NCBI GenBank assembly: GCA_023381995.1
Contig: JAMCVD010000120.1
Coordinates: 1-38,121, forward strand
Direction of reading: 5' to 3'
From: Deltaproteobacteria bacterium
GTDB lineage: Bacteria > JAMCPX01
DNA length: 38,121 nt
Below are positions 6,929-11,892 of the stretch, piece by piece; within the stretch, counting starts at the first letter, position 1; each line of letters begins with the position of its first letter. The translations under genes were made by a program, and so were the position numbers. The notes beneath the pieces are model-generated. The model did no database searches. It was not told the origin of the DNA and worked only from the letters and a program-made list of their open reading frames with translations.

Positions 6929-7121
6929 ATGGAAACAGAGAAAAGCAAAGACAAAAAGAAGTACTCAATATTCTTGCAGATTTGAGAAAACAGAAGAGGC
7001 TTGAGCCTTTAAAACATCTATTTTGGAGTGAGTTGAATTATAATCGGGTAAATGAGCCGCTTTCACGTCATGGATTACCAGATATTGCCAATAAAGCTCT
7101 GGCAGAAGACCCAATACTATT
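6929..7121 (+). pseudogene. restriction-modification-like gene, 5' fragment, split by the IS
   Basis: An ATG at 6929 with AAAGGAG 5 bp upstream opens METEKSKDKK, but the frame stops after 17 codons. A one-base shift in the A-run near 6950-6956 restores a reading frame containing EVLNILADLRKQKRLEPL, WSELNYNRVNEPLSRHG and ALAEDPILL. This frame is cut at 7121 by the IS1595-type element and resumes at 10382. Removing the element and one copy of the 8-bp target repeat gives ...EDPILLASG in frame. From memory, this region resembles the N-terminal domain of Eco57I-like / large class I SAM-dependent DNA methyltransferases (type IIG-like). That family call is recall, not a search result. Confidence 0.55.
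7114..7121. repeat. 8-bp target-site duplication, left copy
   Basis: ATACTATT at 7114-7121 is repeated directly at 10374-10381, immediately outside the two inverted repeat ends. An 8-bp duplication is the expected size for the IS1595 family. Confidence 0.9.
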
Positions 7122-7144
7122 GGGAATTATATACTTGGTAACAC
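7122..7144. repeat. left terminal inverted repeat of the IS element
   Basis: 23 bp, perfect reverse complement of 10351-10373. The stop codon of the DUF3800 gene (7144-7146) overlaps its last base, so the cargo reaches the very end of the element. Confidence 0.92.
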
Positions 7145-7974
7145 TAACTAAAAAGTGCTTCCGCATTTTGATGCCCTGTTGGATCGCTAACTTTAATTCC
7201 TCCGTACCACCATCCTCGGTAATCTTGATACCTGTATTGTAGTTTTTTTATTCTTTGTCCAAAAGCAGTTCTAATATCTAAATATTTCGGATCATAATGT
7301 AAATTGCATTTCACGAATTTTGAACAATAGGCAGTAGCAGCAACTGGGAAAAGTATAGCCGAAGCAATTAAATCTATAAGTTGAAGACCGGCGTGGTTAT
7401 CACTATGACCATACAGAGGCATTTCAAGAAGACGATTATAGGAATCTCCTTTTGGTTTATATTTCTGTGTGAAGATTGAATGGGAAACATTTGCATTTTT
7501 TTCCTTGTCTCTGCTATCAGCTATTATAATTCCAAATTCAAATTTTTGTGTTAAGAAATTTTGAAAGCTGGTAGCAATATGTTGTATAGAAGATGTGTAA
7601 ACTGCTCTACCTTTAAAAGGTAATCCAATAGGCTTTATTGATATATGTCCCAATATAGATACATCATATTTTTCTAACAAGGTAATTATTTGATCAAGAA
7701 ATCTTAACGCAAAACGACGTTGGTCGTGCTCCCCTTTAATAAATTTTCGTAAATAAGAACCTTTAATTTCAATTTTCATACAATCTAAATACAAAGAACG
7801 TGAGAATTTATTGGGGAAATATGTTCTTTTAAGATTCAGAAAATCATGTGTTAAGTTCATAATGTTTCTTTGATTGGTTATGAGGCCACAAATAGCTATA
7901 AGAGGTTGAATGTCTGATAACGGGTCTATTAAAGTACCTGTATCACCCGCTTCATCTACATAACACACATACAT
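7144..7974 (-). CDS. DUF3800 family protein (IS cargo)
   Basis: 276 residues. The N-terminus YVCYVDEAGDTG is the hallmark of DUF3800, a predicted RNase H-like-fold family with acidic residues at the start. The centre has IIADSRDKEKN and the C-terminal part LQLIDLIASAIL, the other conserved blocks of the family. The ATG at 7974 is preceded by AAAGGAG at good spacing. A 13-bp hairpin (7994-8023) lies in the 5' leader. A TATAAT on the minus strand at 8050-8045 could be the -10, though no good -35 is visible. The function of DUF3800 is unproven; members are often found in mobile elements and near defence genes. Here it is cargo of an IS1595-type element. AT-rich codon use matches the rest of the element. 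Confidence 0.8.
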   Translation of the reverse strand: MYVCYVDEAGDTGTLIDPLSDIQPLIAICGLITNQRNIMNLTHDFLNLKRTYFPNKFSRSLYLDCMKIEIKGSYLRKFIKGEHDQRRFALRFLDQIITLLEKYDVSILGHISIKPIGLPFKGRAVYTSSIQHIATSFQNFLTQKFEFGIIIADSRDKEKNANVSHSIFTQKYKPKGDSYNRLLEMPLYGHSDNHAGLQLIDLIASAILFPVAATAYCSKFVKCNLHYDPKYLDIRTAFGQRIKKLQYRYQDYRGWWYGGIKVSDPTGHQNAEALFS

Positions 7975-7993
7975 ATCATCTCCTTTAAAACAG

Positions 7994-8023
7994 CTAAAGC
8001 CACTATATAAATAGTGGCTTTAG
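7994..8023 (-). promoter_or_regulatory. perfect 13-bp hairpin in the DUF3800 leader
   Basis: CTAAAGCCACTAT, a 4-nt loop, then ATAGTGGCTTTAG. It begins 19 bp upstream of the DUF3800 start codon, just before the Shine-Dalgarno. It could be an operator, an mRNA hairpin limiting translation, or a weak terminator blocking read-through from outside. Confidence 0.6.
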
Positions 8024-8228
8024 GGTTTGCCGCCATAGATTGTAATTATAAGCACAATCCTGTACGACCTTTTTAGAATTTATCTGATTATATATTTAAA
8101 CAGAGAGGGGTAAGATGTCAACCAAGTTTATTGTCAATTTAAACCAATTATTAAATCAACTTAATTCTTGACTTTATCAACATTATTGATATATTGTTTA
8201 CAACAAGAAATTAAAAGTTACAAAATAG

Positions 8229-8257
8229 TTGACAAGAGCTTTATTAAAATGTAGGTT
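8229..8257 (+). promoter_or_regulatory. promoter of the coiled-coil/winged-helix cargo gene
   Basis: -35 TTGACA at 8229-8234 and -10 TAGGTT at 8252-8257 with 17-bp spacing. The start codon is at 8293. Confidence 0.5.
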
Positions 8258-8292
8258 ATATTTATAAACAATAAAGAAGTGAGGTAAATAAA

Positions 8293-8742
8293 ATGGATAA
8301 AGAAACATTGTTAGCTTTGAAAAAACGACTTAAAGAGCTTCAGAAATATGATGAAGAAAAAAGTGCTATTGAAACATTACTTAAAATTTATGAAGAAACA
8401 TTACTAAAGAAACGGGATGCAGTAGAACCTATAGACACAGAATTGATAGAAAAAATTAAGAAAGAAAGGAAAGCAGGAAAATCACAACTGGAATGTATAA
8501 AAATGATTGCAACGGAAAGGCAAAATAAAACTATAAGACTTGTGGATGTTAAAAAAGTATTACTTGAAGCTGGAGTTATGAAAAACAGTAAGAGTATTTT
8601 AGGTAACATTTATGGGATAATAGATCGAAGTGGATACTTTGAAAAAGTTGATCGCGGAATATTCAAACTAAAAGAAGAAACTGTAGAACAGCAATTACCT
8701 TTGGATGAACCAGTATCAGCTTTATTGCATGTAAAAACTTAA
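8293..8742 (+). CDS. coiled-coil / winged-helix-like protein (IS cargo)
   Basis: 149 residues, family not recognised. Residues 1-50 are Lys/Glu/Leu-rich and predicted helical or coiled coil (LLALKKRLKELQKYDEEKSAIETLLKIYEE). Residues about 50-130 look like two small helical segments followed by a winged-helix-like unit (VDVKKVLLEAGVMKNSKS then IYGIIDRSGYFEKVDRGIFKL). This pattern suits DNA binding or an adaptor and resembles HB1/HARE-type helix-turn-helix domains in general shape only. The start is supported by GTGAGG upstream. It has its own promoter and is followed by two hairpins, so it is a separate unit between the DUF3800 gene and the transposase. It could regulate the element or act with DUF3800. 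Confidence 0.6.
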   Translation: MDKETLLALKKRLKELQKYDEEKSAIETLLKIYEETLLKKRDAVEPIDTELIEKIKKERKAGKSQLECIKMIATERQNKTIRLVDVKKVLLEAGVMKNSKSILGNIYGIIDRSGYFEKVDRGIFKLKEETVEQQLPLDEPVSALLHVKT

Positions 8743-8787
8743 GAGAATAAAAACAAGGAGGTGGTGTAAATGAATAGAAGAAAAAAA

Positions 8788-8816
8788 GCACCCTCGCTAC
8801 TGTCATAGCAGGGTGC
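8788..8816 (+). terminator. hairpin downstream of the winged-helix cargo gene
   Basis: GCACCCT-C-GCTA paired with TAGC-AGGGTGC (11 bp with one bulged C), preceded by an A-run. A 12-codon ORF (8770-8808) with a strong AAGGAGGTG sits over its left arm; it is too short to call a gene. Confidence 0.45.
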
Positions 8817-8824
8817 CATCATGG

Positions 8825-8842
8825 GGGCGGGGAAACCCGCCC
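8825..8842 (+). terminator. GC-rich GAAA-loop hairpin before the transposase
   Basis: GGGCGGG-GAAA-CCCGCCC: a perfect 7-bp stem with a GNRA tetraloop, strikingly GC-rich inside AT-rich DNA, followed by TATTAATT. Together with the hairpin at 8788-8816 it probably insulates the transposase promoter from cargo transcription. Confidence 0.45.
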
Positions 8843-8950
8843 TATTAATTATAGTAAATTATATAATACAGTTTCATTATGCTGTCAAGATGAATAATAC
8901 TTTGTATCTTATTGATATATCTATATTAAATAAATAGTGTTACAAAATAC

Positions 8951-8978
8951 TTGACAACACTAATTTAATGTGTATAAT
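8951..8978 (+). promoter_or_regulatory. consensus promoter of the transposase
   Basis: Perfect TTGACA (8951-8956) and perfect TATAAT (8973-8978) with 16-bp spacing, 21 bp upstream of the start codon. Such a strong promoter is unusual for a transposase gene. Confidence 0.75.
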
Positions 8979-8998
8979 AGGGGCAAGAGGTAAATGAT

Positions 8999-9898
8999 AT
9001 GAAAGAAATAAGCATAACAGAATTTCTAACAAAGCGGTTTCCTACAGAGGGAAGTGCTACAGCTTTTTTTGCGGAAAAGCGGTGGGATGGTAAAGTTACT
9101 TGCCCTTATTGTGGTAGTGAAAAAATCTATCAAGGTAAAGGTAAACAACCTTACAAGTGTAGTGAATGTAATAATAAGTTTACTGTAAAGACGGGTACTA
9201 TTATGGAAGGTAGTCATGTTGATGTTAGGATATGGTTGTTTGCAATGTATATTATGGGAACTTCCCGCAAAGGCATATCTTCAATTCAGTTTGCAAAATT
9301 GCTTGGTGTTACTCAAAAGACAGCATGGTATATGGCACATCGTATTCGTGAAGCCTGCAATGAATATGAGAAATTAAAAGGTATAGTGGAAGCAGATGAA
9401 ACGTATGCTGGGGGTAAAGAAAAGAATAAACATGCAAACCATAAACTTGGCGGGCGTGGAACAGCGAACAAAACCCCTATACTTGGTTTAAAACAATGTG
9501 GCGGTAGTTTCAGGGGTAAAGTTTCAGATAATACCGATATTGAAACAATGAATAAATATATTAAAGCAAACGTAGAAACAGAATCAACAATTTACACAGA
9601 TGAATTTTCAGGTTATCAAGAATTAAAAAACAAAGGTTACAATCATACTACTGTAAATCACAACAAAGGCAACTATGTAAATGGTGATGTGCATACAAAC
9701 AGTATTGAATCGTTTTGGGCATTATTAAAGCGTGGAATATATGGCACGTATCATCATGTAAGCAAGAAGCATTTACAGCGTTATGTAAACGAATTTGCTT
9801 TCAAGGCAAGCAACGGAAACTTTGCCTTCCCGTTTATCAATGCTGTTTGTTTACAAGCTAATGGAAATGTGTTACATTACAATCAACTTATAGGTTAA
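8999..9898 (+). CDS. IS1595 family transposase
   Basis: 299 residues, full length. An N-terminal zinc ribbon (Cys35, Cys38, Cys54, Cys57: CPYCGS...CSECNN) is followed by an HTH-like segment (KGISSIQFAKLLGVTQKTAWYMAHRIREA). The DDE-type catalytic domain follows, with acidic residues at Asp133 (EADETYAGG) and Asp201 (YTDEFSGY) and the NSIESFWALLKRG block (Asn234, Lys244) typical of the IS1595/ISXO2-like fold. The start has AAGAGG upstream. No frameshift or truncation is seen, and the element ends and target repeat are intact, so the enzyme is probably active. It should catalyse cut-and-paste or replicative movement of the 7122-10373 element. Confidence 0.93.
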   Translation: MKEISITEFLTKRFPTEGSATAFFAEKRWDGKVTCPYCGSEKIYQGKGKQPYKCSECNNKFTVKTGTIMEGSHVDVRIWLFAMYIMGTSRKGISSIQFAKLLGVTQKTAWYMAHRIREACNEYEKLKGIVEADETYAGGKEKNKHANHKLGGRGTANKTPILGLKQCGGSFRGKVSDNTDIETMNKYIKANVETESTIYTDEFSGYQELKNKGYNHTTVNHNKGNYVNGDVHTNSIESFWALLKRGIYGTYHHVSKKHLQRYVNEFAFKASNGNFAFPFINAVCLQANGNVLHYNQLIG

Positions 9899-9900
9899 AT

Positions 9901-10056
9901 ATGCCAAGACAACAAATAATAAAACCGATAGATAAGTCTTACACAGAGATTATTGAAGCTGTGTCAAAGTATACAACAAAAGAGATCAATCCTGCTTTAA
10001 AACAACATAAACAGAATAAAGCAAAATCAAAGTCCCGTAATGTAAAAAAGAAATAA
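9901..10056 (+). CDS. 51-residue basic protein downstream of the transposase
   Basis: Opens with ATG 2 bp after the transposase stop, so it is probably translationally coupled. Translation begins MPRQQIIKPIDKSYTE and ends in a strongly basic tail (KQNKAKSKSRNVKKK). No known family is recognised. Position and charge suggest an accessory DNA-binding factor of the element; this is inference. Confidence 0.5.
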   Translation: MPRQQIIKPIDKSYTEIIEAVSKYTTKEINPALKQHKQNKAKSKSRNVKKK

Positions 10057-10064
10057 TGCTAAAT

Positions 10065-10277
10065 TCAGAATTTAGATAAAGCTTTCCACGTAATTAACCG
10101 TTTCGCTTTTTGTTTTCCATAAGGTGTCCATCGTATTCCGCCAATGCTGATCGTTATATAACCAAGATGTTTCTTACCATATTTTTTCCATATCTTTATT
10201 TCAATACCACTTTTACCAATAGAAAATCCCTCTTTAATTGAAACATCAGCCCAGCTTGATGGTTTTCCTTTTGCCAT
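10065..10277 (-). CDS. 70-residue small basic protein (IS cargo)
   Basis: The ATG at 10277 has a strong TAGGAGGTG just upstream. The sequence starts MAKGKPSSWADVSIKEG, with a central GIEIKIWKKYGKKHLGYITISIGGIRW and a basic C-terminus. It looks like one small mixed alpha/beta domain of about 70 residues. It is convergent with the transposase and lies 74 bp inside the right inverted repeat. The family is not recognised, but the clear Shine-Dalgarno and clean frame support a real gene. Confidence 0.6.
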   Translation of the reverse strand: MAKGKPSSWADVSIKEGFSIGKSGIEIKIWKKYGKKHLGYITISIGGIRWTPYGKQKAKRLITWKALSKF

Positions 10278-10350
10278 TTTACACCTCCTATTATAACTTA
10301 CTATAATAATTTATAAAAAATCAAATATAATCATACAGAGATGATGGTAG

Positions 10351-10373
10351 GTGTTACCAAGTATATAATTCCC
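10351..10373. repeat. right terminal inverted repeat of the IS element
   Basis: 23 bp, perfect reverse complement of 7122-7144, immediately followed by the second target-site copy. Confidence 0.92.
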
Positions 10374-10381
10374 ATACTATT
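10374..10381. repeat. 8-bp target-site duplication, right copy
   Basis: ATACTATT, identical to 7114-7121. Confidence 0.9.
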
Positions 10382-10795
10382 AGCATCAGGGGATCTGATA
10401 ATGGACTCCATATTATCTATTCCAGATTGTCAACAGACCGATTGCTCATCGGACAGGAACGGCCCATAGTATCAAAACTTCTGCAAACACATCCTTATAC
10501 CCTTTTTGTTTTCTCCAACAGCAATCAATCGAGATGGCATTTCCTCAATGTTAACTATGATGAGAACAGCAGCAAACGACGCTTATTCCGCAGGATAACC
10601 ATAGGTAAGGAAGAACGGCTCCGCACTGCTTCCGAGCGTATTGCCATGCTTGATCTCGAATCAGTCAACTCAAGTCTATTGGGTATTTCATCATTAGATA
10701 TCCAGGCAAAACATGATGAAGCTTTTAATGTAGAAGCTGTAACGACACAATTTTATGAAAATTATAAAATGGTTTTCCAAGACCTTCAAAGCACG
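10382..10795 (+). pseudogene. restriction-modification-like gene, continuation after the IS
   Basis: Continues the fragment at 6929-7121. Just after the junction the frame reads LLASGD. A further small shift near 10390-10397 moves into a frame reading DNGLHIIYSRLSTDRLLIGQ, then FVFSNSNQSRWHFLNV, KRRLFRRITIGKEERLRTAS and DEAFNVEAVTTQFYENY. These segments match what I remember of the N-terminal region of Eco57I-like large DNA methyltransferases. The gene then ends abruptly at about 10795, where GC-rich chromosomal-type sequence (the SDR gene) starts. The methyltransferase and nuclease parts are absent. It is therefore a 3'-deleted, twice-frameshifted, IS-split relic. Confidence 0.6.
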
Positions 10796-11667: not shown

Positions 11668-11892
11668 ATGAAGGAATATAACTACACAATCATCCTGGAA
11701 AAAGAGGAAGACGGAGGGTATCATGCCTTTTGCCCGTCACTCCCGGGATGCCACACTCAGGGTGATACATACGATGAGGCTATGGACAATATAAAAGAGG
11801 CAGTTAAACTCTATATAGAAAGTCTTAAAGCCAACAAAGGACCTATACCTGCTGAAGATATAACTATAAAACCGCCCAAGGTGGCGATCTGA
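11668..11892 (+). CDS. hicB: HicB family antitoxin
   Basis: 74 residues from the ATG at 11668, with ACGAGGAAG upstream. The fold signature is clear: YTIILEKEEDGGYHAFCPSLPGCHTQGDT, then a helix EAMDNIKEAVKLYIESLK and a short tail. This is the partially degraded RNase H-like HicB antitoxin domain, which neutralises HicA by direct binding. There is no obvious extra DNA-binding domain. Its TGA overlaps the start of the toxin frame (CTGA), the usual tight coupling, but the toxin gene is damaged. Confidence 0.85.
   Translation: MKEYNYTIILEKEEDGGYHAFCPSLPGCHTQGDTYDEAMDNIKEAVKLYIESLKANKGPIPAEDITIKPPKVAI

Follow-up and report, generated by a model that had tools for sequence, protein, structure and literature searches.

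What does a small transposon carry when its passenger is a gene of the DUF3800 family, a widespread family whose function is unknown, and can that passenger move without it? The question is raised by an insertion sequence (IS) of the IS1595 family in contig JAMCVD010000120.1 of a Deltaproteobacteria bacterium (assembly GCA_023381995.1), of which we analyzed a stretch of 38,121 nucleotides, here called the window. With moderate confidence, we answer that the element is a transporter IS (tIS) carrying a module, made up of a leader RNA and a putative DUF3800 nuclease, that moves independently. The passenger is a self-contained unit of promoter, two-hairpin leader RNA and DUF3800 gene, and the conserved pairing of RNA and DUF3800 also occurs without this IS.

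The element itself is, near certainly, a complete IS1595-family tIS, whose DDE transposase would move it by way of the 23-bp ends. An earlier reading made from the letters of the DNA (the sequence-only reading) had called it an IS1595-type transporter element with perfect 23-bp inverted ends and an 8-bp direct repeat, and both calls were confirmed. The sequence GGGAATTATATACTTGGTAACAC at 7122-7144 returns as its exact reverse complement at 10351-10373, with ATACTATT on both sides, and the transposase matches Pfam DDE_Tnp_IS1595 (E 1.3e-41) and NCBIfam IS1595 (E 1.5e-59). The element thus has the marks of the IS1595 family, namely a DDE domain with an N-terminal zinc ribbon, terminal inverted repeats (TIRs) that begin with GG, and an 8-bp target-site duplication (TSD); it also has that of a tIS, since genes unrelated to transposition are enclosed by the ends of a single IS. 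The element has 32% GC, versus 48-53% in the flanks, and is present in one copy in its genome.

The insertion lies in a type IIG (Eco57I-like) restriction gene. With one copy of the TSD retained, the junction reads in frame (...KALAEDPILLASGD), as the sequence-only reading had stated, but the frame continues for only a few codons: the window copy lacks one base (GGGG for GGGGG) about 10 bp to the right of the insertion and breaks off near 10795, which indicates that this target gene either was a pseudogene or turned into one. An empty site, which the same reading had proposed to look for in related genomes, was found in the same genome. There, an uninterrupted Eco57I-type paralogue of 1125 aa on contig C53 (G000:C53; 85% nucleotide identity) reads GACCCAATACTATTAGCATCAGGGGG at the insertion point and contains the 8 bp a single time. 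Related genomes hold more copies of the type IIG gene.

Evidence that the passenger is a unit comes from the DNA upstream of the DUF3800 gene. Comparison of 12 upstream regions revealed a leader of about 75-95 nt, composed of two hairpins (P1 and P2) that stand directly before the start codon. P1 follows the pattern GNNG-[AU]A-C...G-[GA]-CNNC with a variable tip. P2, a stem of 10 bp, has a conserved GCC/GGC core; a linker like AAAUCC stands before it, and UAGUUGUUU and the Shine-Dalgarno sequence come after it. This leader is conserved, with compensatory changes, before DUF3800 relatives on plasmids, in prophages and in metagenome-assembled genomes (MAGs). When the leaders were aligned from the start of P1 (alignment A8), 98.9% of cells paired and 8 of 16 pairs had changes on both sides; the covariation score was 0.439, against 0.198 +/- 0.023 for shuffled alignments, none of which scored as high (0/500). 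Without the window, L075 and L076, pairing rose to 100% and the covariation score to 0.514. We also built a blind model from nine sequences, leaving out the same three, and searched it against the whole genome that holds the window. The window leader was its sole significant match there (E 1.2e-7, with the next best at 0.59). That the leader RNA is conserved is near certain. A weak match of leader model R1 in genome G319 was set aside as probable chance, its P1 pairs being partly broken.

Other DUF3800-associated RNAs are already in Rfam (PMC11701678). No family of Rfam 15 matched the leader in the window or in 10 relatives, and scanning the whole element gave sub-threshold matches only. Set against the libraries that we compared, this leader RNA, like the small peptide P51 described below, appears to be undescribed; ISfinder or the original papers on tIS and DUF3800 RNAs could list either under another name.

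The protein that follows the leader matches Pfam PF12686 well above the family's gathering cutoff (E 5.2e-13; 50.4 bits versus 21), and its conserved residues are D7, E8, E69, K71, D153, H165, H194 and D201. The sequence-only reading had named DUF3800 as a passenger that may be a nuclease, and these data support it, as do weak fold matches to RNase HII, with which the YVDEAG motif of the protein agrees. DUF3800 has been described as an RNase H-fold nuclease that accompanies some CRISPR systems (PMC10910872, PMC12669027), and we infer that the window protein would cut nucleic acid. Its relatives, at 35-45% identity, stand alone on plasmids of Thiothrix, Acinetobacter and Klebsiella, on prophage-like contigs and in two MAGs. 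The gene is nearly absent from sampled genomes (2/386), and it was not found in 17 genomes that hold related elements, in a search that had no positive control.

Related transposases were drawn from genome contigs, from viral contigs and from 386 genomes that made up a second sample, and we looked around each for inverted ends with an 8-bp duplication. This gave 48 elements, the window's included, with two further calls (L125 and L143) left out because their ends are unlike the family's. TIRs and an 8-bp TSD bound the 47 related elements, most of them with GG ends; the calls are not due to chance, as the search succeeded at 21 of 37 real loci and at none of 37 shuffled ones. All 48 measure at least 1.64 kb, of which the transposase gene takes up about 0.9 kb; with some 0.7 kb or more left over in each, carrying passengers is normal in this clade and not exceptional. 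Among 116 cargo proteins of 44 elements, Pfam placed DNA methyltransferases in 13 elements, three of which pair the enzyme with a NotI-type or PD-(D/E)XK nuclease; HNH, PemK, PIN, NYN and other domains also occur. At 2-7 kb, L017, L085, L018 and 10 more IS1595 elements that bear DNA methyltransferases, in part together with a restriction nuclease that matches, are minimal mobile restriction-modification transposons. In Bacteroides and Phocaeicola, elements L044, L045, L047 and L051 have near-identical transposases, differing 8-bp duplications and partly exchanged cargo, a pattern that is recent cargo swapping. Members of the window element's clade thus nearly always carry passengers and exchange them. 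IS elements are usually seen as one-gene parasites; this clade behaves as a general-purpose vehicle for small genes that encode restriction and methylation enzymes, toxins and nucleases.

Within the clade, a transposase tree places the window transposase as sister to that of L079 (support 99/98), the nearest complete relative (58% transposase identity), whose ends are GGGAACTATATACATGATAACACC with an 8-bp TSD and whose cargo is a DNA methyltransferase. The closest fragment is L016 (69% transposase identity), whose contig stops inside the transposase gene and whose left end, GGGAACTATATACTTAATAACACC, lies only about 80 bp upstream of that gene; DUF3800 and P149, a probable regulator, are therefore additions on the left side. 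The end consensus is GGGAAYTATATAC in the window's own branch and drifts elsewhere. The sequence-only reading had set copies of the ends around other transposases as a test, and here the outcome is divided: the exact 23-mer has no second occurrence in the genome contigs or viral contigs searched, but homologous ends are present at L079 and L016. The idea that four cargo genes travel as a conserved set was not borne out, since DUF3800, P149 and the small protein P70 have no close homologues in about 45 related elements and DUF3800 relatives occur alone on plasmids and prophages. One distant IS1595 element, L135, has a DUF3800 gene of its own above the Pfam cutoff, which means that the family was acquired at least twice by IS1595 elements.

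The sequence-only reading had also taken the transposase for the only standard IS gene and two small basic open reading frames (ORFs) for cargo. Of these two, P70 is an orphan and P51 would belong to the IS clade itself. In L048, L031, L081 and L135, a motif-bearing ORF of 41-50 aa likewise starts at the transposase stop, and L022, L032, L034, L115 and others have an ORF with the P51 motif at the right end. The methyltransferase of L079 opens with the same N-terminal 25 residues as P51, and another passenger, in L084, opens with a P51-like N terminus. In a leave-one-out profile scan, 12 of the 20 elements in the window's branch had the motif, as did 4 of 25 others, against fewer than 0.02 per element expected from flanking ORFs; these counts lean towards the motif because the seeds were first chosen by eye, and one control ORF scored 28. 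In all, at least 16 of 45 elements have it, and several more cases are visible by eye. Given this recurrence, P51 is probably an accessory of this IS clade and not random cargo. In the short form [IL]x[AD][ST]xExIxxA, the motif also recurs in L113, L024, L035 and L023.

The features of the element and of its insertion site are collected in Table 1.

Table 1. Positions of the element, its genes and RNA features, and the interrupted gene in the window.
Feature	Position	Strand	Basis
IS1595-family element (3252 bp)	7122-10373		TIRs, TSD and transposase
5' remnant of type IIG (Eco57I-like) restriction gene	6949-7121	+	Paralogue C53
Left TSD, ATACTATT	7114-7121		8-bp direct repeat
Left TIR, 23 bp, perfect, GGGAATTATATACTTGGTAACAC	7122-7144	+	
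DUF3800 gene, 276 aa, predicted RNase H-fold nuclease; stop codon touches left TIR	7144-7974	-	Pfam PF12686
DUF3800 leader RNA: P1 (8068-8029), linker, P2 (8023-7994), Shine-Dalgarno, start codon	7972-8068	-	Covariation, blind model match
Candidate promoter of leader RNA and DUF3800: TTGACA, 17 nt, TAAATA	8093-8121	-	Read from sequence
P149 upstream region with TTATTGATATAT...GTTACAAAATAsTTGACAA, as at transposase promoter	8183-8235	+	Local alignment
P149, 149 aa, N-terminal helices and winged helix, probable DNA-binding regulator	8293-8742	+	Single-sequence model
Two back-to-back hairpins between P149 and transposase, probable terminator(s)	8789-8843		
Transposase promoter region, TTGACA-16-TATAAT, 12/12 consensus positions	8909-8978	+	
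Transposase, IS1595 family, 299 aa, zinc ribbon and DDE domain	8999-9898	+	Profile matches
P51, 51-aa basic protein, motif IIxPIxxSxxEIxxAV; begins 2 nt past transposase stop	9901-10056	+	Leave-one-out motif scan
P70, 70-aa orphan protein	10065-10277	-	Without significant match
Right TIR, exact reverse complement of GGGAATTATATACTTGGTAACAC	10351-10373	-	
Right TSD, ATACTATT	10374-10381		8-bp direct repeat
3' remnant of type IIG gene, frameshifted and truncated	10382-10795	+	Paralogue comparison

Among the other passengers, P149 bears out the winged-helix protein of the sequence-only reading, as its single-sequence structure model, which matches winged-helix folds, predicts helices followed by a winged helix. 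It had only a weak SngA match in PADLOC (E 0.049) and no homologues in the plasmids or viral contigs searched. Both TTATTGATATAT and GTTACAAAATAsTTGACAA recur, similarly spaced, in front of P149 and in front of the transposase (local alignment score 41, reached by 0 of 2000 shuffles). In L130, a winged-helix-like ORF recognized by eye also precedes the transposase and has a sub-threshold Penicillinase_R match. P70 gave no significant match in profile searches or in plasmids, viral contigs and phages, and neither P51 nor P70 matched the PADLOC anti-phage profiles. The hairpins at 8789-8843 are GC-rich and adjacent, with a T-run after one of them on the minus strand; a sub-threshold sroC-like Rfam match (8773-8859) covers this terminator-like pair. 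Reading the hairpins as an integron attC site was rejected by eye because the outer sequences do not pair together. Near the element, at 11668-11892, we recognized by eye a HicB-like antitoxin ORF (MKEYNYTIILEKEEDGGYHAFCPSLPGC..).

We propose the following course of events. The RNA-DUF3800 unit would have been acquired from a pool of plasmid and prophage copies, and the DUF3800 protein may bind the leader so that nuclease expression is held in check, whether by autoregulation or by an RNA-antitoxin-like brake. The nuclease might then act on foreign nucleic acid, or make loss of the element costly. We hypothesize a defence or maintenance role for the module, made more credible by the conserved leader RNA and by the restriction- and toxin-rich cargo of the clade. 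P149 would probably co-regulate itself and the transposase through their common promoter sequence, and P51, at a guess, perhaps binds transposase or DNA. Several points weigh against this picture. The element is a single copy in one MAG, and its recent activity is unproven. The fold model of DUF3800 has RNase HII as its top Foldseek matches, but these are weak (E 4e-3, TM about 0.3-0.4), and the protein matched no PADLOC model. The blind model also matches the minus strand of L152:1501-1576 in genome G309, before an MFS transporter gene with no DUF3800 following; this leader may be a remnant or exapted. Finally, the leader could be plain regulatory, with no role in nuclease function. A rival account is pure cis-regulation, in which the hairpins would do no more than adjust how a housekeeping-like or cryptic enzyme is translated and neither addiction nor defence is involved. 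The RNA does lie in the 5' untranslated region, is single-copy in the window's genome and, in most members, stops 17-21 nt short of the start codon, but a gene that is so rare among sampled genomes and located on mobile elements is unlike housekeeping genes. We regard this account as possible while leaning against it.

Other roles for the RNA must also be weighed. We tentatively entertain, with some doubt, a two-component system made up of the P1-P2 RNA and this DUF3800 subfamily. Its RNA would act directly on the enzyme, whether by inhibiting it, serving as its cofactor or guiding it, and the pair would spread with plasmids, prophages and IS1595 transposons and be a minimal module for addiction or defence. 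In a separate, type III-like toxin-antitoxin account, a short RNA of P1 and P2, with P2 as a leaky terminator, would neutralize DUF3800, and loss of the element would free the toxin. The order of promoter, structured RNA, hairpin with U-rich tail and nuclease gene suits such a system, as do the carriage of the unit alone by small plasmids and prophages and the recurrence of the toxins PemK and PIN in clade cargo. P2 of the window scores terminator-like, which makes a short RNA ending there, with read-through into the gene, possible. However, the gene-less RNA in G309 does not fit, the leader lacks tandem repeats, and a conserved G interrupts the U-rich tail; because of these last two features we do not claim type III membership. 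DUF3800 is also not known to be related to ToxN-type nucleases, and altogether we judge this account rather unlikely. An OMEGA-like RNA-guided nuclease, with the leader as scaffold and variable flanking or loop sequence as guide, would account for an RNase H-fold nuclease beside an upstream structured RNA on mobile elements and recalls the DUF3800 proteins of some Cas12 and Cas13 systems (PMC10910872, PMC12669027). It is very improbable, given that no variable guide region was found at the RNA ends, that a promoter lies just upstream of the RNA in several copies and that the RNA is very short. The most ordinary account, an IS1595 tIS whose passengers are random and do not matter, can point to freely varying cargo in the clade and to the orphans P149 and P70, yet we find it unlikely. 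The independent recurrence of DUF3800 in L135, the recurrent restriction, methylation and toxin genes, and the conserved RNA and active-site-like residues indicate selection. A tIS with an independently moving RNA-DUF3800 module is thus the reading that we prefer, and a covarying leader common to plasmid, prophage and transposon copies offers a testable handle on DUF3800 function and on why RNAs recur beside DUF3800.

How does this arrangement compare with known systems? Type III toxin-antitoxin loci such as ToxIN likewise have an RNA preceding a nuclease gene on mobile DNA, but the window leader has no repeats and the protein family is unrelated, so the likeness is one of analogy only. The DUF3800 proteins of type V-A2 and VI-F CRISPR loci belong to the same protein family, with a reported RNase H fold (PMC10910872, PMC12669027), whereas we saw no CRISPR array or Cas gene in the window element and its protein has no TPR domain. 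The Rfam DUF3800 RNAs (e.g., RF02969 DUF3800-I and RF02968 DUF3800-IX) are also structured RNAs found with DUF3800 genes, yet no Rfam 15 covariance model matches the window leader. A further close system is the tIS of the IS1595 family (Siguier et al. 2009, as cited in PMC7986276 and PMC3129680), with which the window element shares the transposase family, GGG ends, 8-bp TSD and passengers unrelated to transposition. Many IS1595 relatives have the transposase beside the left end and cargo downstream only; in the window, by contrast, the passengers (DUF3800 with its leader RNA, P149 and P70) stand on both sides of the transposase.

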